NCBI RefSeq assembly: GCF_000970025.1
Contig: NZ_CP009528.1
Location: 4,203,168 to 4,267,167 of the forward strand
DNA: 64,000 bases
Source of the DNA: Methanosarcina barkeri MS
GTDB lineage: Archaea > Halobacteriota > Methanosarcinia > Methanosarcinales > Methanosarcinaceae
Direction: 5' to 3'
This document shows, in pieces, positions 11,735 through 18,204 of the stretch. Under the pieces are notes generated by a model, which saw only the letters and a list, made by a program, of their open reading frames with translations, was not told the origin of the DNA and ran no database searches. Made by a program: the position numbers and the translations under genes. Position 1 is the first letter of the stretch; each line of letters opens with the position of its first letter.

Positions 11735-13510
11735 TTAAAAGCTGCTCCCAAGTTCCTTTAACTTTTTCGATCCGGGAACTCCTTCTTCATTCCATCCGCG
11801 GTAATGGTAATATTCCTGAAGTGCAGCTTCGAATTCCTGCCTGGGAAGTCCGTACCCTTCGTTTTCACCCTTGTTTTCAAACAGCCTTTCAGGAAGGGTA
11901 TCGTCTTTTCGGGCAAATCCTGCATTAAGGTTATACGTTCTCTCCAGATTATAGATTCTTTCTCCGATTTTCAGGAGCTCCGCAGGTGATATTTCCATAC
12001 CTGCACCCGAAAGCAAAAGAGCAGAACCTAGCTCTTCGTTAAGGGCAAAACCTGAGAAGGGGCAGAATACAAAAGAGTCCAGAACTGCAGTCAGGTTTTC
12101 AAATACCTGGAGGATACCTGCTTTTCCTTTAAGGCTCAGACGATTAAGACTTACAGGTCTTCCAAGTACCTCGGGTCCAACCATGAAAGCAGTCAAATAG
12201 TCTCCCCCATGGGTGGAAGTAGCATAAGCCAGGGCCTGTCCCTTTATCCCTCGCGGATCAAAACCTCCGAGTTCGAGCCCCTTTACATCCATGCTCAGGT
12301 CTTTTCTCCCAAGGCCTGATAAGTATCTCCTGGCTCCATTTCCTAGTTTGCCTCCTTCCCCGATTTCAAAGAGCCTGGATTCCAGTTCATTAGCCTTGAT
12401 TATTCCTTCTTTGAGTTCTGCATATGCCCCGAGCACGGAACCTGCCGAGATAGGATCAAGCCCGTAATCCTTGCATATCCTGTCAGCCTTAAGCACGGAA
12501 GTGATATCAGGGTTTTCAAGGTTAAACCCGAAGGCCCAGAAGGAATCGTAATCAGGCAAAATCTGTCCTTCAGGTAAAATCGGCCCTTCAGGCAAAATCT
12601 GCCCTGCATTTTTAAACATCTGCCCTGCTCCTTTAATTCTTTTTTTACAACCCAGAGGACAGCCAGGACAACTCTCATTTTCAAGCTTGAAAGTGGATTT
12701 GATACACTCTCCTGAAAGTAAATCTGCAAAAAGAGTCTTTTTTCCGGTAAAGTTCCTGCTAGGAATGAGATTCATATAATCCAGCAGTTTTACAAGCACA
12801 GAAGTGCCGTAATTTGCAAGGCCTTTAGAAAGCACGGGACTTGCATCAAAGAGCTTCGATAGTTTTACCTCAAGTTCCCTGAATCTCTCAGGAGCAGAAG
12901 GTGAAAGTTCCTTTTCTCCTTTTACAACCACGGCTTTGAACATTTTTGAGCCGGCAACCGCACCCAGACCTCCTCTCCCGCTATGTATGGAATCAACAAC
13001 AAAAGAGGAAATAAGAACCTGTTTTTCTCCTGCCCTACCAATACAGGCCACACTGCCTTTGTCTTCAAGGGCTTCGGTACATTCTCTGATATTCATTCCC
13101 CAGAGATGTTCTGCGGGCACAATTTCAATATTTCCGGTCTCTATTTTTACATACGAAGGCCTTTTTGCCTTTCCGATAACAATCAGAGCATCGATTTCAG
13201 CTTTCTTCAGTTCACTTCCGAAGCCCCCAGTCATGTTCCAGCTAAATATCGTGCCTGTTAAAGGCGATTTTGATGTGAGGACCGCACCTGAAGCCATCGG
13301 AGCAAGGCCAGAAAGAGGCCCAGAGGTGAATATTAAGGGATTTTCCGGACTAAGAGGGTTAATATTCGCGTCTGCAAGTTCGGAAAGCAGTTTTACCCCC
13401 AACCCTCGGCCACCAAGGTATTTCCGAATTAAGTTCTCATCGGTCCTGACTGTATTTACAGATTCAGAACCAAGGTCTACATATACTGTTTTTCCTTTCA
13501 AGCCCGCCAT
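11735..13510 (-). CDS. aor: Tungsten-type aldehyde ferredoxin oxidoreductase
   Basis: 591 residues, normal size for the AOR family. The N-terminal tungstopterin-binding domain is recognisable (MAGLKGKTVYVDLGSESVNT, KYLGGRGLGVKLL, IFTSGPLSGL), and the Fe4S4 site CPGCPLGCKK lies near residue 280. These enzymes oxidise aldehydes to acids with ferredoxin as acceptor in the cytoplasm. The start ATG has GAGG about 9 bases upstream. Odd point: just after the Fe-S Cys cluster, an 18-bp DNA unit repeated three times (12553-12606) gives a GQILPEG/GPILPEG/GQILPD series that looks like an in-frame expansion. The natural aldehyde cannot be told from sequence. Confidence 0.9.
   Translation of the reverse strand: MAGLKGKTVYVDLGSESVNTVRTDENLIRKYLGGRGLGVKLLSELADANINPLSPENPLIFTSGPLSGLAPMASGAVLTSKSPLTGTIFSWNMTGGFGSELKKAEIDALIVIGKAKRPSYVKIETGNIEIVPAEHLWGMNIRECTEALEDKGSVACIGRAGEKQVLISSFVVDSIHSGRGGLGAVAGSKMFKAVVVKGEKELSPSAPERFRELEVKLSKLFDASPVLSKGLANYGTSVLVKLLDYMNLIPSRNFTGKKTLFADLLSGECIKSTFKLENESCPGCPLGCKKRIKGAGQMFKNAGQILPEGPILPEGQILPDYDSFWAFGFNLENPDITSVLKADRICKDYGLDPISAGSVLGAYAELKEGIIKANELESRLFEIGEGGKLGNGARRYLSGLGRKDLSMDVKGLELGGFDPRGIKGQALAYATSTHGGDYLTAFMVGPEVLGRPVSLNRLSLKGKAGILQVFENLTAVLDSFVFCPFSGFALNEELGSALLLSGAGMEISPAELLKIGERIYNLERTYNLNAGFARKDDTLPERLFENKGENEGYGLPRQEFEAALQEYYHYRGWNEEGVPGSKKLKELGSSF
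12553..12606 (-). repeat. 18-bp in-frame triplication inside the AOR gene
   Basis: Three units related to CAGGCAAAATCTGTCCTT on the plus strand lie head to tail. They encode a Pro-Glu-Gly-Gln-Ile-Leu series in the oxidoreductase, next to the Fe-S ligand region. Confidence 0.8.
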
Positions 13511-13550
13511 ATTAATTCCTCTATTTCTTTTCCCGCTCCATTTTACTTCT

Positions 13551-13683
13551 GTTTTTACTCCTGCTTCTTAATTATGTTTTTACTCCTGCTTCTTAATTAT
13601 GTTTTTACTCCTGCTTCTTAATTATGTTTTTACTTCTGCTTTTTAATTATGTTTTTACTTCTGTTTCTTAATTATGTTCTTAC
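13551..13683. repeat. 25-bp tandem array in the AOR leader
   Basis: Five copies plus a partial one of GTTTTTACTCCTGCTTCTTA (and ATTAT) lie 40-170 bp upstream of the oxidoreductase start. The three copies nearest the gene are identical; the two distal ones have drifted. Read on the mRNA strand, the three identical units contain GCAGGAG, a Shine-Dalgarno-like motif, although no start codon follows. Confidence 0.9.
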
Positions 13684-14075
13684 CTATGGATAGATAACCA
13701 TGGACAAGACCATAATAGTTAACATTAGCGTTTTTATTCAATAATCAAAGGATAAGAACTGTGACCTTAATGGCAACTAATCCCATAAACGCCGTAGATA
13801 TACAAAATAAAATTACCAAATAAATCAAAAAAGAGTATCTTCTTCAAATTGTATGAGTAAAAGTAAATTTCATGTATTTGCTGAAAATTTAAGAATTTAA
13901 CCAAGCGTAAGAAACAACTTCAAACGATGCATTTAACTCAATAACTGTATGATAAAATTGTTGCACATTTTTCGAATTGGAAAATCCTCCATTAAATTTG
14001 AAGAGAATACCGAAAATTTAAAAAACACTATCAATGAAACTATTAAATAAGGAATAGTTCTGCCTCCCAGAGGAA
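13684..14075. other. AT-rich intergenic region holding a dispersed ~70-bp repeat
   Basis: No gene seen. At about 13821-13895 there is a block (GTATCTTCTTCAAAT, then GTAAAAGTAAATTTCATGTA) that recurs almost unchanged at 23920-24000. Promoters for the minus-strand oxidoreductase gene and for the plus-strand sulfur-relay genes must also lie in this stretch. Confidence 0.6.
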
Positions 14076-14280
14076 ATGTCAGGGTAGAACTTATGGGCAT
14101 ATATAAACACCTGCCCCAGACCAACTGTCGAGACTGCGGTGAACAGAGCTGCTACATCTTTGCCATAAGGCTACGGCAGGACAGGTAAGTTTAGATCAGT
14201 GTACGCAACTTAAAGAGTCAGGTTATGAAACCAACCTCGAAAGGCTACAGTTTCTGGCTGGCGTACATTTGAGTCACAAT
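14076..14280 (+). pseudogene. Fe-S cluster domain gene (PF04060-like), frameshifted
   Basis: From ATG 14093 one frame encodes GIYKHLPQTNCRDCGEQSC and continues FAIRLRQDR to a TAA at 14186. The next frame over continues with GQVSLDQCTQLKESGYETNL. Joined, these give the four-Cys pattern C-x2-C-x4-C-x(about 16)-C of the PF04060 Fe4S4 domain found in CO dehydrogenase/acetyl-CoA synthase corrinoid subunits and redox proteins. One base is missing near 14175-14182. A second lost base at ATG 14076 may have removed the original start (ATG-GTC-AGG-GTA expected). It sits just before the DsrE-like gene and was probably part of that unit. Confidence 0.6.
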
Positions 14281-14308
14281 CTGATGTATCAATCAGTTGG
14301 AGGAAGCT

Positions 14309-14689
14309 TTGAAAACACTAACAATAGTACTCACTGATGGTCCTTACATCTCTGAGTACGCTGAGATCGCCTACAAACTCGCCAGGGCTGCACTTAAACA
14401 ATATAAAGTAAACATATTTCTGTACCTGGATGCAGTGCACATCCCAAAAAAGAGCCAGGACCCATCCTTCTTTACCAATGCAGGACAACTGTTTTCCGGA
14501 CTTGCGGAAAAAGGGGTCGTTATTCGAGCCTGTGCGCGATGCGCCAGTGCAAGAGGCTACATTCCAGAAGAGGAGATTATACAGGGAAGTAACTGCAGAG
14601 ATTATCTCCCTGGAATAAGAATTACTAGCCTTTATGAGCTGTCGGAAATGTTAAATAAAAGTGACAGAGTAATTTCACTTTCAAGATAA
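14309..14689 (+). CDS. DsrE-like sulfur carrier protein
   Basis: About 127 residues from TTG 14309; GGAGG at 14299-14303 selects it over TTG 14297. The pattern is DsrE/TusD-like: KTLTIVLTDGPYISEYAEIA, then NIFLYLDAVH, then the loop RACARCASARGY with Cys75 and Cys78, one of which would carry the persulfide. It is the first of three consecutive small genes matching DsrE, DsrF and DsrH (TusD, TusC, TusB), which form heterohexamers passing sulfur between thiol carriers. In a methanogen the acceptor could be tRNA thiolation or Fe-S assembly; this is inference. Confidence 0.75.
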   Translation: MKTLTIVLTDGPYISEYAEIAYKLARAALKQYKVNIFLYLDAVHIPKKSQDPSFFTNAGQLFSGLAEKGVVIRACARCASARGYIPEEEIIQGSNCRDYLPGIRITSLYELSEMLNKSDRVISLSR

Positions 14690-14731
14690 GGTTTTATTGA
14701 TAAAATCCAATTTTTGGGAGGTTCGGATCTT

Positions 14732-15076
14732 ATGAGATCAGTTTTTTATCTGCTGGATACAGCACCATACGGCAGTGAAAAAGCTTTTGGAGCATTGAAT
14801 GCAGCTGCAGTAAGCCTTAGGAAGATGGATGTGACTCTCGGTCTTTATGGCGATGGAGTTTATCTTGCGGTTGCAGGGCAAGACAGCAGAAAGCTTGGAT
14901 TACCAAACCTTGCAGATATTCTTTATGCATACGGGGAGTTGAGAGTGCTTGTGCATGAACCCTCGCTGATGGAAAGGTACCTTTTCGGAGAAACTTTGAT
15001 AGAAACCCTAGAACTGACCGACGAAGAAGATTTTTTTGAAGTAATGAAAAGCTCGGATGGTGTGATCTCGTTTTAA
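14732..15076 (+). CDS. DsrF/TusC-like protein
   Basis: 114 residues from ATG 14732, served by GGGAGG at 14716-14721. It has the DsrF/TusC pattern: SVFYLLDTAPYGSEKAFGAL, then DVTLGLYGDGVYLAVAGQ. There is no cysteine, as expected for the structural subunit. It ends with the family-like SSDGVISF. It is spaced 42 bp from the DsrE-like gene, clearly in the same unit. It most likely serves as scaffold in a DsrEFH-type complex. Confidence 0.75.
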   Translation: MRSVFYLLDTAPYGSEKAFGALNAAAVSLRKMDVTLGLYGDGVYLAVAGQDSRKLGLPNLADILYAYGELRVLVHEPSLMERYLFGETLIETLELTDEEDFFEVMKSSDGVISF

Positions 15077-15119
15077 TAATGGCTGAATACTACTTAATGG
15101 CTGAATACTACTGCTGATC

Positions 15120-15440
15120 ATGGATTTATCGGATGATAATATGAAACAAGAACAATCGGATGTGTTCCTGCTGACAAAGCCTCCCTTCAGCCAGAAATCG
15201 GAGTTATGTCTTAAACTGGCTGCCTGTTCTGAGAAAGCCAGAATCTACCTTGCAGGAGATGGAGTCTATCACCTGCTTACCGGGATAGAAGAACAACAAG
15301 AGTTCAAAATTTACGCATGTAAAGAAGACCTGGAAGCCAGAGCTATGAGGGCAGGAGATAAAGTGACAGTCTTGGATGACTTTTACACCGATTTTATAGA
15401 GGATATAATGGAGCATTGCAGGCATGAATATACATTTTAA
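15120..15440 (+). CDS. DsrH/TusB-like protein
   Basis: 106 residues; ATG 15120 is used, with an in-frame ATG at 15141 as alternative and no strong ribosome binding site for either. It has the DsrH/TusB pattern SDVFLLTKPPF, then KARIYLAGDGVYHLL, then IYACKEDLEARAM (the family's DLEARG region), with a Cys in the strand before it. It completes the E-F-H order. A 17-bp duplication (TAATGGCTGAATACTAC) lies just upstream at about 15077-15113. Confidence 0.7.
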   Translation: MDLSDDNMKQEQSDVFLLTKPPFSQKSELCLKLAACSEKARIYLAGDGVYHLLTGIEEQQEFKIYACKEDLEARAMRAGDKVTVLDDFYTDFIEDIMEHCRHEYTF

Positions 15441-15594
15441 AATTTTAAGTGTTGTAATTTGAGAATTATATTTTTTGATTTGTGGTAAAAAGTGCCAGAT
15501 CTTTTTTGCCATATTTTACTTTGCCAAATTTACTTTCATAATTGCAACCGCTCCTTTAAGTTATTGGAAATAAAGCTGAACCGGATTGATTTTT

Positions 15595-15879
15595 ATGGTT
15601 GAGAGTATCCCGAAAGAGATAATAAAAGAACTGCAATCAGTATGCCAGTTGCATGAGGAAGCTGTCTGCAATCACGATAAATGCAGGGAATTTAGTGAGA
15701 GTTTATCAGGAATATTGGTCCGGCTTGAAGATCTAAAATTCTACCGGATGGCTGACAGACTGATGAGTATTCTCCTGAACTGCAAGCCAAAGGAGGCCTC
15801 TCACTGTGAAAAAGCTAACCTCGTTGGAGAAATGATGAAAGAAATAACAAAAGAAGCTAAGAGAGCGGCAGGAAAATGA
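15595..15879 (+). CDS. Small helical protein of unknown function
   Basis: 94 residues from ATG 15595 (an ATT/ATG pair further up is also in frame). It is charged and helical throughout, with five cysteines (SVCQLHEEAVCNHDKCREF, LLNCKPKEASHCEKAN) and a lysine-rich end. I do not recognise it. It lies between the sulfur-carrier genes and the Cys-rich ArsR regulator on the same strand, so it may belong to that functional group. The spaced Cys and His residues could bind metal, but there is no classical motif. Confidence 0.5.
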   Translation: MVESIPKEIIKELQSVCQLHEEAVCNHDKCREFSESLSGILVRLEDLKFYRMADRLMSILLNCKPKEASHCEKANLVGEMMKEITKEAKRAAGK

Positions 15880-15979
15880 AATCTGAAGCTTTCTTATTTT
15901 ATAGCTTGTTTAAAGGTAACCCGGATCAAGTGTTTGATTTTATTATTCAGCTTTAGAAAAATATATATTCTTATATTCA

Positions 15980-16294
15980 ATGTTTATTGATATGAGTGAT
16001 GAAGAAAACATCCAGCTTTTCAAGGCACTGAGCGAAGATACAAGGTACAGAATTATCAAGGCTCTTCTTGATGCTGAGTGCAAATGCAAAGAGAATAAAT
16101 GCAGTGACTGCAAAGGAGAACTATGCGCCTGCGAGATCCCGGAACTCATTGATAGAACTCAGTCAAATACCTCAATGCACCTTGCAAAATTGCAGGACTG
16201 GGGAATAATTAAAGTGAGAAAAGAAGGGAAGATGAGGCTCTATTCCATAGAAAACGATAAAATCAGGAAACTTCTGAAAGTTCTTGAAAAATAA
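15980..16294 (+). CDS. ArsR-family regulator with a six-cysteine insert
   Basis: 104 residues. The winged helix is clear: LFKALSEDTRYRIIKALLDA, CEIPELIDRTQSNTSMHLAK and a wing at VRKEGKMRLYSI. Between helix 2 and the recognition helices are six Cys in 18 residues (34, 36, 41, 44, 49, 51: CKCKENKCSDCKGELCAC). Ordinary ArsR/SmtB proteins have one Cys-x-Cys here. The cluster should bind a thiophilic metal(loid), zinc or an Fe-S cluster, or sense sulfide or redox state. Its position after DsrE/F/H-like genes suggests control of them. ATG 15992 is an alternative start. Confidence 0.8.
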   Translation: MFIDMSDEENIQLFKALSEDTRYRIIKALLDAECKCKENKCSDCKGELCACEIPELIDRTQSNTSMHLAKLQDWGIIKVRKEGKMRLYSIENDKIRKLLKVLEK

Positions 16295-16382: not shown

Positions 16383-17099
16383 TTATTCATATTTTTCAAG
16401 TTTTGCTCTTTCTTGCAGAGTTAAAAAACCGTAATCTTGAGCTTTTAAGGTACGGATCAAAACTTTAAGGTTGTTTAGGGCTTTTTCTCCAGTATTGAAC
16501 TTGCAATCCAGGCGTATAGATGTGTTTGACATATCCACGAATTCCCAGGGATGGACAAAGATTACAGGGGATTCCCAGCGTTTGAGTAGCGGGATAAAAA
16601 ATTCTGGAGGCAGCCTTATAAATGAAGAAGTAATCGTCGCTGGAATCCTTATTATTTTGCCTTCAACTTTGCTCCGGGAAAAAGGAGGCTTATATGCTGC
16701 AATGGATGAGTCGTACCTAAAACCCTCATCTTCCAGAAGTCCAAGATAATTTTTCGGGAACTGCAGGTTCGGGGCCCTGAAAGAAACCAGCTTCCTTTCA
16801 AACTGCCTCAAAACTCCTCCAGCCTGCTTGAGAGCAGTTCTGGCTTCTTCTTTATCCATGCGGTCAAAACGCGTATGAGTATATCCATGGCATCCAAGTT
16901 CATGTCCTTCTTCCGGGATTCTATGTATAATGTCAGGATATTGCTTAGCCATCATCCCGGTAACAAAAAATGTTGCTTTTATCCTTTCTTTTTTGAAAAG
17001 ATCCAGTAACTCAGGCAGTCCTTCTTCCATGCCTCTCGTACTTGTAAGCATCGGGGGACAGTCTTCTTCCACATCAACAGTTATTGTGATATTTTTCAT
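16383..17099 (-). CDS. Polysaccharide deacetylase (CE4/NodB fold)
   Basis: 238 residues from ATG 17099; the frame is open further to 17153, but that part lies inside the glycosyltransferase gene and precedes the conserved ITVDVEEDCPP. The CE4 motifs are present: Asp-rich motif 1 (TVDVEED), HGYTHTRFDRM with the metal His pair, and SFRAPNL motif 3. Such enzymes remove N-acetyl groups from glycans in the presence of a divalent metal. There is no signal peptide, so it probably acts on a lipid-linked sugar at the cytoplasmic face. It overlaps the glycosyltransferase gene by 26 bp, forming the end of a three-gene operon. Confidence 0.85.
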   Translation of the reverse strand: MKNITITVDVEEDCPPMLTSTRGMEEGLPELLDLFKKERIKATFFVTGMMAKQYPDIIHRIPEEGHELGCHGYTHTRFDRMDKEEARTALKQAGGVLRQFERKLVSFRAPNLQFPKNYLGLLEDEGFRYDSSIAAYKPPFSRSKVEGKIIRIPATITSSFIRLPPEFFIPLLKRWESPVIFVHPWEFVDMSNTSIRLDCKFNTGEKALNNLKVLIRTLKAQDYGFLTLQERAKLEKYE

Positions 17100-18204
17100 A
17101 AATGACACTTGTATATACTTTGCTTGTCTGTTCACAGATCCGGTTCCAGTCATAATTTGAAAGCCCTCTTAAAGCTTCCCTGGAAAAGGAAGTTCGCAGG
17201 GCCGGTTTTTCTATAAGATTCTCAAGATATTCTGAAAATTCGGTAATGCTGTCTGCAAGATAGCCGTTCACACCGTTATTTACAATATCCGAAACCCCAC
17301 TGTTATTCATTGCTACAACAGGAACCTCTTTTGACATTGCCTCCAGAATCGAAATTCCAAAAGCCTCATTAATCGAGGGAAGAGCAAATATATCTGCCTG
17401 TTCCAGATATCCCAGCACTTTTTCCCTGGGTACTTCCCCTGTAAAGTAGAAATTTCCGGATAAACCTGACTCCTCCACCGTGCTTTCAAGCTTTTCCCTT
17501 AGTGGGCCGTCTCCTATCATTACAAACAGCAAATTTTTATGCTTTTCCAGAAGTGAAGGGGCTAAATCTACAATGTTTTGAACACCCTTTTTCTTTGTCA
17601 TGCGTGCAACCGTGGCAATTACGAGTTTTCCTTTAGTATTAACAGGGAAGGAGACTTTGATGATTTTATCTTCAGAATCTACCCCATTGAAAATCCGGTA
17701 TATTGGTTTTTTTGTCATCAGCTTTGAGTCTTTTTCAACTGCCGAACTAACTGCAATTACAGCATCAGTATTTTTTAGAAGCAATTTGCCTGCAAGATAT
17801 AAAAGCGAACTATATGGCGTATCTCCTACCAGGGAATGATTGGTGACTACTACGGGAATTCCGAGTTTTCTGGAAATAATAAGAGCAATCATACCGATGG
17901 GTGAATCAAGCCCATGACAATTGACAATATCATAATTCCCGTTTTTTAAAAGGTTGAAGAGTTCTTTATATGCACCTGGCATGAGAAATCGCCTCTGTCC
18001 GGGTAAAGGTTTACCTTTAACTCTTATTACTGATACTCCATCCCTTCTACTGTACTCAGGAACACCTGGGTAGCTCCTTGTAATAACGCTTACCTCATAT
18101 CCATGCTTGCTCAGGGTTTTAGCAAGGGTGTGCATTGAATACTCGATTCCTCCTACCTTTGGAAAATACCAATCACTGATCATTGCAATTTTATGTTTTT
18201 CCAT
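17074..18204 (-). CDS. GT4-family glycosyltransferase
   Basis: 376 residues with a GT-B fold: an N-terminal acceptor domain (PKVGGIEYSMHTLAKTLSKH) and a C-terminal nucleotide-sugar domain with the E-x7-E motif (EAFGISILEAMSKEVPVVAM). It transfers a sugar from a nucleotide donor with retention of configuration; the sugar is not readable. It overlaps the flippase-like gene upstream by 25 bp and the deacetylase downstream by 26 bp. The three genes look like one transcription unit for a surface glycolipid or glycan. Confidence 0.9.
   Translation of the reverse strand: MEKHKIAMISDWYFPKVGGIEYSMHTLAKTLSKHGYEVSVITRSYPGVPEYSRRDGVSVIRVKGKPLPGQRRFLMPGAYKELFNLLKNGNYDIVNCHGLDSPIGMIALIISRKLGIPVVVTNHSLVGDTPYSSLLYLAGKLLLKNTDAVIAVSSAVEKDSKLMTKKPIYRIFNGVDSEDKIIKVSFPVNTKGKLVIATVARMTKKKGVQNIVDLAPSLLEKHKNLLFVMIGDGPLREKLESTVEESGLSGNFYFTGEVPREKVLGYLEQADIFALPSINEAFGISILEAMSKEVPVVAMNNSGVSDIVNNGVNGYLADSITEFSEYLENLIEKPALRTSFSREALRGLSNYDWNRICEQTSKVYTSVIYEKYHNNC

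Follow-up and report, generated by a model that had tools for sequence, protein, structure and literature searches.

The sulfur-transfer complexes DsrEFH and TusBCD have established roles in the oxidation of sulfur and in tRNA thiolation, usually with DsrC or TusE as the acceptor protein. In Allochromatium vinosum, whose DsrEFH is of type I, DsrE Cys78 bears a persulfide and DsrH Cys20 is required in vivo (PMC3397948). A 2026 survey of types I and II (PMC13293266) describes a non-canonical type II DsrEFH that has archaeal members and accompanies tusA/yeeE or dsrMK/qmo; the terms "methanogen" and "Methanosarcin" are absent from its main text. Here we analyze a 64,000-nucleotide stretch of a Methanosarcina-type genome (G000:C2:4203168-4267167, hereafter the window), in which five intact plus-strand genes (dsrE, dsrF, dsrH, a gene for a 94-residue protein, and arsR) follow the remains of a regulator gene. 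We read this locus, with a probability of about 0.58, as a displaced fragment of a sulfane-sulfur relay linked to arsenic resistance. Comparison establishes the homology of the Dsr-like proteins, their conserved cysteines, the gene order, the placement of the unit in an ars island in most relatives, the absence of DsrC/TusE, the decay of the regulator, and the separation of the window genes from the island.

The three Dsr-like proteins were assigned by profile and structure-database matches. DsrE (14309..14689, plus strand; Cys 75, 78, and 96) and DsrF (14732..15076, plus strand; no cysteine) both scored above the Pfam cut-off for PF02635, and DsrH (15120..15440, plus strand; Cys 30, 36, 67, and 100) scored above the cut-offs for PF04077 and for TIGR03011 (TusB; 74.1 bits versus a cut-off of 49.2). 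The sequence-only reading, made earlier from the letters and open reading frames, had proposed an E-F-H order, and this order is right, because the best Protein Data Bank (PDB) match of each protein was the corresponding A. vinosum subunit: 2hy5 chain A for DsrE (E 1.3e-6), chain B for DsrF (E 3.9e-7), and, weakly, chain C for DsrH (E 0.01). The true start of DsrH may be internal, since homology begins near 15160. The cysteine pair noted earlier in the first gene proved to be present and conserved. DsrE Cys75, which aligns with A. vinosum DsrE Cys78, and the extra CxxC cysteine three residues further on, Cys78 in our numbering, were both kept in 44/44 aligned loci, and DsrH Cys30, which aligns with A. 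vinosum DsrH Cys20, was kept in all 40 aligned loci. In 14 of 15 gene comparisons the ratio of nonsynonymous to synonymous substitution rates (dN/dS) ranged from 0.04 to 0.27, and only DsrH versus the close relative G078 was higher (0.58, with few changes), so the genes are still mostly under constraint.

The unit shares with A. vinosum DsrEFH and Escherichia coli TusBCD the three paralogous subunits in E-F-H order and the equivalents of DsrE Cys78 and DsrH Cys20. It differs from them in failing the TusD and TusC cut-offs, in the extra DsrE cysteine of the CxxC motif, in the lack of DsrC/TusE, and in having its own regulator and ars neighbors. Like type II, it is a non-canonical DsrEFH in an archaeon, and it differs from type II as described in its gene company.

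In intact relatives, a regulator of about 268 residues ends about 40 bases before dsrE and combines an ArsR-type winged helix, one repeat resembling the TATA-binding protein (TBP), and a [4Fe-4S] domain of the type found in the corrinoid iron-sulfur protein (CFeSP). Its sequence profile matched CFeSP 2h9a (E 8e-9; the N-terminal [4Fe-4S] domain), ArsR 1y0u (E 6e-7), and TBP 2z8u (E 3e-6; the C-terminal part of Methanocaldococcus jannaschii TBP). For one intact relative, the regulator model that AlphaFold2 built from 40 sequences, with a mean predicted local distance difference test (pLDDT) score of 83, shows the winged helix, a complete TBP-type repeat at about residues 99-190, and a small helical Fe-S part. 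With VIA-align, the model matched TBP 2z8u at Z 11.8 (root-mean-square deviation 1.8 over 87 residues) and CzrA/CadC-type repressors at Z near 12, and Foldseek listed CFeSP 4c1n and TBP among its matches, none with E under 0.001. The model contains a single repeat, and the second tandem repeat of the TBP DNA saddle was not found in the regulator. The protein carries one full repeat of the TBP type, fused between winged helix and Fe-S domain. It shares the winged helix with the ArsR/SmtB metalloregulators (CadC, CzrA), to which it adds the TBP-like repeat and the [4Fe-4S] domain, and it shares the four-cysteine PF04060 pattern with the N-terminal [4Fe-4S] domain of the CFeSP gamma subunit, from which it differs in having no attached corrinoid protein.

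In the window this regulator is broken. The sequence-only reading placed a frameshifted PF04060 Fe-S gene just before dsrE; the Fe-S piece (14093-14188, plus strand; E 1.7e-8) and the frameshift are both real, but the piece is not a separate gene. It belongs to the C-terminal stub, roughly the last 100 residues, of a regulator pseudogene (13967..14262, plus strand), recognized by tblastn with intact relatives, by search within the same genome, and by PF04060. The homology runs in one frame from about 13967, crosses a TAA at 14048-14050, and meets a frameshift near 14170-14186; the N-terminal part of about 160 residues is missing. G078 retains only the first ~170 regulator residues, in two frames, beside intact dsrEFH, and because the lesions differ, the losses in the two genomes are separate events. 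The idea that one frameshift or a sequencing error had damaged an independent Fe-S gene was rejected on the missing N-terminal part, on the stop together with the frameshift, and on the other lesions in G078. Both G000 and G078 retain an intact regulator paralogue. The regulator of a third genome, G083, is interrupted by a stop that leaves a 170-codon frame, and we observed that this frame (L057) resembles a short form of the protein, TBP-FeS, that lacks the winged helix. A separate observation concerns loci L017, L018, and L021 (in G081, G093, and G084), in which a second, decayed DsrE copy sits between two tandem regulator paralogues, which probably reflects a past duplication of the regulator-dsrE unit.

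Conservation was assessed in 392 genomes of the phylum and in 111 genomes of the family, with strong DsrE matches defined as those of 199 bits or more (the next match scored 110 bits). There were 32 such matches in 31/392 genomes, and strong DsrE was present in 30/111 family genomes. The sequence-only reading had proposed conservation of the neighborhood as a check, and it was found: a regulator match lay directly upstream on the same strand in 32/32 strong DsrE matches, and the gene for the 94-residue protein followed dsrH in 27/33 Methanosarcinaceae loci. The 32 upstream regulators comprised 28 full-length open frames, a short one in G385 (without the winged helix, and with only the Fe-S domain visible to Pfam), one cut by a contig end in G007, the stop-interrupted G083 copy, and the window stub. 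Since the gene set is conserved across Methanosarcina, it is more than a chance grouping, and we take the ancestral unit to be a single run of genes, the three-domain regulator followed by dsrE-dsrF-dsrH. DsrC/TusE (PF04358) was found in 0/111 family genomes, with a positive E. coli control; TusA was found in 28/30 genus genomes. Two further loci, L261 (G241) and L262 (G378), hold an intermediate DsrE clade of 100 to 110 bits with an adjoining DsrF, and in L261 also DsrH; neither locus contained a regulator or ars markers.

The sequence-only reading saw in these genes a sulfur-handling or, as a conjecture, sulfide-sensing island. Homology and conserved cysteines support a putative relay, but the link to arsenic-resistance genes, which becomes visible in relatives, had been missed. 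ACR3 or an ArsP-type permease occurred in 37/46 loci of the regulator-dsrEFH unit versus 0/19 loci of other DsrE types (Fisher p 6e-10), a comparison whose rows are not independent and whose marker set, drawn from Methanosarcinaceae loci, is partly circular there. The 46 case loci were the window, 32 from Methanosarcinaceae, 12 Methanothrix-type loci, and G385, with the degraded copy L069 excluded; the 19 controls were 16 loci chosen from DsrE matches of 110 bits or less plus L070-L072, excluding G145, G256, the second G416 match, and weaker, mostly fused matches. The same markers, with the same partial circularity, occurred in 20/29 loci of full-length TBP-FeS proteins, in 9/26 loci of the short forms from other archaea and bacteria, and in 0/23 PF04060-only controls. 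Some short forms (L209, L210, L214, L217, L219, and L220, from Archaeoglobi, Bathyarchaeota, Clostridia, and Acetothermia) adjoin ArsP and thioredoxin, some also ArsR or ACR3; no DsrE match was found in these six loci.

The Methanothrix-type loci offer a more independent test because the markers were derived from Methanosarcinaceae. We take their family (f5) to be Methanothrix from the named loci rather than from a label on each genome. In 10 of the 12, acr3, regulator, dsrE, dsrF, and dsrH are consecutive and co-directional, and in the other two acr3 lies ~4 kb from dsrE. Four loci scanned with Pfam had a rhodanese-domain gene, which precedes acr3 in L146, L163, and L258 and follows it in L153. 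In all five named Methanothrix loci (L199, L200, L202, L203, and L204), ArsC follows dsrH. As the arrangements in Methanosarcina and in the Methanothrix-type loci differ, the arsenic association is not just a single inherited block. Among the 12 Methanosarcinaceae genomes with acr3 and dsrE on one chromosome-size contig, whose rows share ancestry, the two genes were at most 20 kb apart in 9 (chance 0.7 to 2.5 percent each). The neighbors in relatives include ACR3 (TIGR00832) and the arsenite methyltransferase ArsM, both above cut-off, and an ArsC of the low-molecular-weight-phosphatase type, whose best match is arsenate reductase, below cut-off. Further neighbors are ArsP-like permeases, an ArsE-type thioredoxin, and DGC, MtrA-like, and DUF6951 proteins. 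An arsenite efflux gene in the same cluster, as expected of an ars operon, is present in many relatives but not in the window genome.

In the window genome itself, acr3 lies 338 kb from dsrEFH. Much of the island is found at 3.861-3.881 Mb, ~340 kb from the window genes, and comprises TusA, a desulfurase-like class-V aminotransferase, NifU, the regulator paralogue, CMD, ArsM, a split MtrA-like gene, DUF6951, DGC, thioredoxin, ArsP, two arsR genes, and ACR3. In G078, the regulator paralogue, CMD, ArsM, MtrA-like gene, DUF6951, DGC, thioredoxin, ArsP, arsR, and ACR3 all lie to one side of dsrEFH, within ~15 kb, and on the opposite side TusA is found at a distance of 13 kb. Because the G000 island is ~340 kb off while its G078 counterparts adjoin dsrEFH, the window locus is a rearranged fragment. 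Within the G000 island, an insertion containing transposase-like frames interrupts the MtrA-like gene (G000:C2:3871519-3873784; L078/L079), and another, full-length copy is present at C2:776577. A 132-codon open frame of LNIR repeats in the same region (L079:2030-2428) probably reflects simple repetitive DNA and not a true gene.

Apart from the partial circularity of the marker set, several observations weigh against a link to arsenic. Arsenic islands gather many unrelated genes, and 9/46 case loci, several of them on short contigs, contained neither ACR3 nor ArsP. One of the units, in G385, has the short regulator and no ars marker within ~8 kb, its acr3 being on another contig. In the five named Methanothrix loci acr3 is not adjacent to the unit: L199, L202, and L203 have it at a distance of ~3 to 4 kb, and it was not seen in L200 or in the short L204. 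Three of the 12 Methanosarcinaceae genomes, the window genome among them, have acr3 and dsrE separated by more than 100 kb, and only fragments of acr3 survive in G083 and in G081, the latter counted as near. The ArsP-like permease falls below the cut-offs of the named NCBIfam efflux models, with NF040736 SaoE as its best match, and among the sulfur relay proteins themselves two NCBIfam equivalog cut-offs were missed, with 42 bits against 89 for TusD and 34 bits against 94 for TusC. ACR3 scored over its cut-off in 78/111 family genomes versus 30/111 for strong DsrE. Because ACR3 is so common, its co-occurrence with dsrEFH at the genome level is weak, and because it is common without dsrEFH, the relay is optional and not needed for efflux.

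Taken with these reservations, the comparative data suggest that sulfur-transfer machinery was put to use against arsenic. DsrE Cys75 would receive sulfane sulfur, in Methanosarcina from a cysteine desulfurase/TusA and in Methanothrix-type clusters from the rhodanese-like protein encoded there, and DsrEFH would hand it to an acceptor other than DsrC. This acceptor would, we think, serve arsenic detoxification either by thiolating arsenite or by renewing arsenic-damaged thiols and Fe-S sites; we would guess at arsenite thiolation as the more specific of the two. The [4Fe-4S] domain may sense As(III), redox, or sulfur state and thereby set DNA binding by the regulator. Because the adjacent regulator gene is dead in the window strain, dsrEFH there probably either lacks regulation or depends on the intact paralogue elsewhere.

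Among the alternatives, a general Tus/Dsr-type biosynthetic relay, serving tRNA thiolation, cofactors, or Fe-S assembly and present in a metalloid island merely through gene collecting, survives best, and we consider it unlikely but with a real chance. The E/F/H homology fits such a relay, as do the G385 unit and the grouping of TusA, the class-V aminotransferase, and NifU beside the displaced island in the window genome. A core pathway, however, would not be expected to be as patchy as a strong DsrE found in 31/392 genomes, DsrC/TusE is absent, ACR3 or ArsP occurs in 37/46 loci of the unit versus 0/19 of other DsrE types, and the arrangement differs in Methanothrix-type genomes.

A more elaborate version of the arsenic-linked relay would be a new arsenic defense in methanogens, in which an Fe-S-gated regulator with a single TBP repeat controls a DsrEFH that loads sulfane sulfur onto arsenite to give an exportable thioarsenical, and in which the same TBP-FeS sensor module also serves the arsenic clusters found in Archaeoglobi, Bathyarchaeota, and Clostridia; as a whole, this proposal seems to us rather unlikely.

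The thiols of DsrE and DsrH might instead bind As(III) and pass it to ACR3, as an ArsD-like metallochaperone that moves no sulfane sulfur. Such a role would suit the DsrE CxxC kept in 44/44 loci and the acr3 gene adjacent in 10/12 Methanothrix-type loci, but the cysteines concerned match the A. vinosum persulfide carrier (DsrE Cys78) or the cysteine required in vivo (DsrH Cys20), and the rhodanese neighbors indicate sulfur, which leaves the metallochaperone quite unlikely.

The selenocysteine-assisted organometallic (Sao) system includes SaoD, which belongs to the DsrE family, and the efflux transporter SaoE. Our loci likewise combine a member of the DsrE family with an efflux transporter, a likeness drawn from NCBIfam names, and differ in that the scores of the window and its relatives are far below the cut-offs. 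The island could act on a metalloid other than arsenic, but a system close in spirit to Sao and directed at further metalloids or at organometallics (Se, Sb, Te, Hg, or methylated As) is very unlikely, since the SaoE match of the permease, the weak match of DsrE to NF040913 SaoD/DsrE (E 0.08), and the MtrA-like, ArsM, and ArsE-type thioredoxin neighbors stand against a curated ACR3 above cut-off directly beside the unit and an arsenite methyltransferase also above cut-off.

The remaining intact genes of the window locus are less firmly tied to dsrEFH. The 94-residue protein (15595..15879, plus strand; Cys17/25/30/63/71) is predicted to be, as the sequence-only reading held, a cysteine-containing helical protein: its AlphaFold2 model is a four-helix bundle (pLDDT 83). 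It had no family match in Pfam, NCBIfam, or PDB, and fold searches returned only generic or designed four-helix bundles. It was present in 41/392 genomes, one of which (G097, L172) is a Methanosarcina genome with neither a DsrE nor an ACR3 match. As a fixed DsrEFH partner it was rejected, being apart from dsrEFH in the Methanothrix-type loci fetched. The ArsR/SmtB-type repressor (15980..16294, plus strand; Cys 34, 36, 41, 44, 49, and 51) scored 74.8 bits for NF033788 (cut-off 55) and matched CadC 1u2w (E 9.4e-11). All six clustered cysteines reported before are present, but only the CxC pair is conserved: Cys49 and Cys51, which align with the CVC of CadC and are shared with ArsR/SmtB metalloregulators, were kept in 27/27 close homologues (55% identity or more; some of the 27 matches share one genome). 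The other four lie in a variable insert and were kept in only 4, 13, 4, and 2 of the 27, and the idea of a conserved sensor formed by them was rejected. The next co-directional gene after the ArsR homologue was an ArsP-type permease in 17/27, so that the window ArsR, judged by its homologues, is a close relative of the ArsR preceding the ArsP operon. A place for ArsR as a fixed part of the dsrEFH unit was rejected on these neighbors and on locus context.

On both sides the five intact genes are flanked by minus-strand genes, for an aldehyde ferredoxin oxidoreductase (11735-13510) before the dsr genes and a polysaccharide deacetylase (16383-17153) after arsR. A 25-base AT-rich unit forms a tandem array (13543-13683; 5.6 copies, 93% matches) in the gap that separates the oxidoreductase gene from the regulator stub, and this array is possibly linked to the rearrangement.

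Among the literature matches listed, judged by titles and abstract starts and with subscription papers mostly outside, there was no methanogen arsenic-linked DsrEFH, no TBP-containing ArsR regulator, and no PF04060 regulator. The main text of the review PMC6205960 lacks the terms "DsrE", "DGC", and "Methanosarcina", and PMC10418091, consulted for the MtrA-like neighbor, lacks "arsenic" and "MtrA". In Thioalkalivibrio, DsrE/F-like genes respond to arsenite in a role described as unclear in a 2019 transcriptome study (PMC6620896), and the present locus is a system for asking why they do so. A branch of DsrEFH without DsrC/TusE is thus accompanied by a three-domain regulator of its own and, in most cases across two families of methanogens, by genes for arsenite efflux or of the ArsP type. 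This company connects sulfur trafficking with arsenic tolerance in anaerobes in a concrete way that is open to test. If a transcription factor places a single TBP repeat next to an Fe-S domain, it would be an unusual reuse of a basal-factor fold in a sensor.

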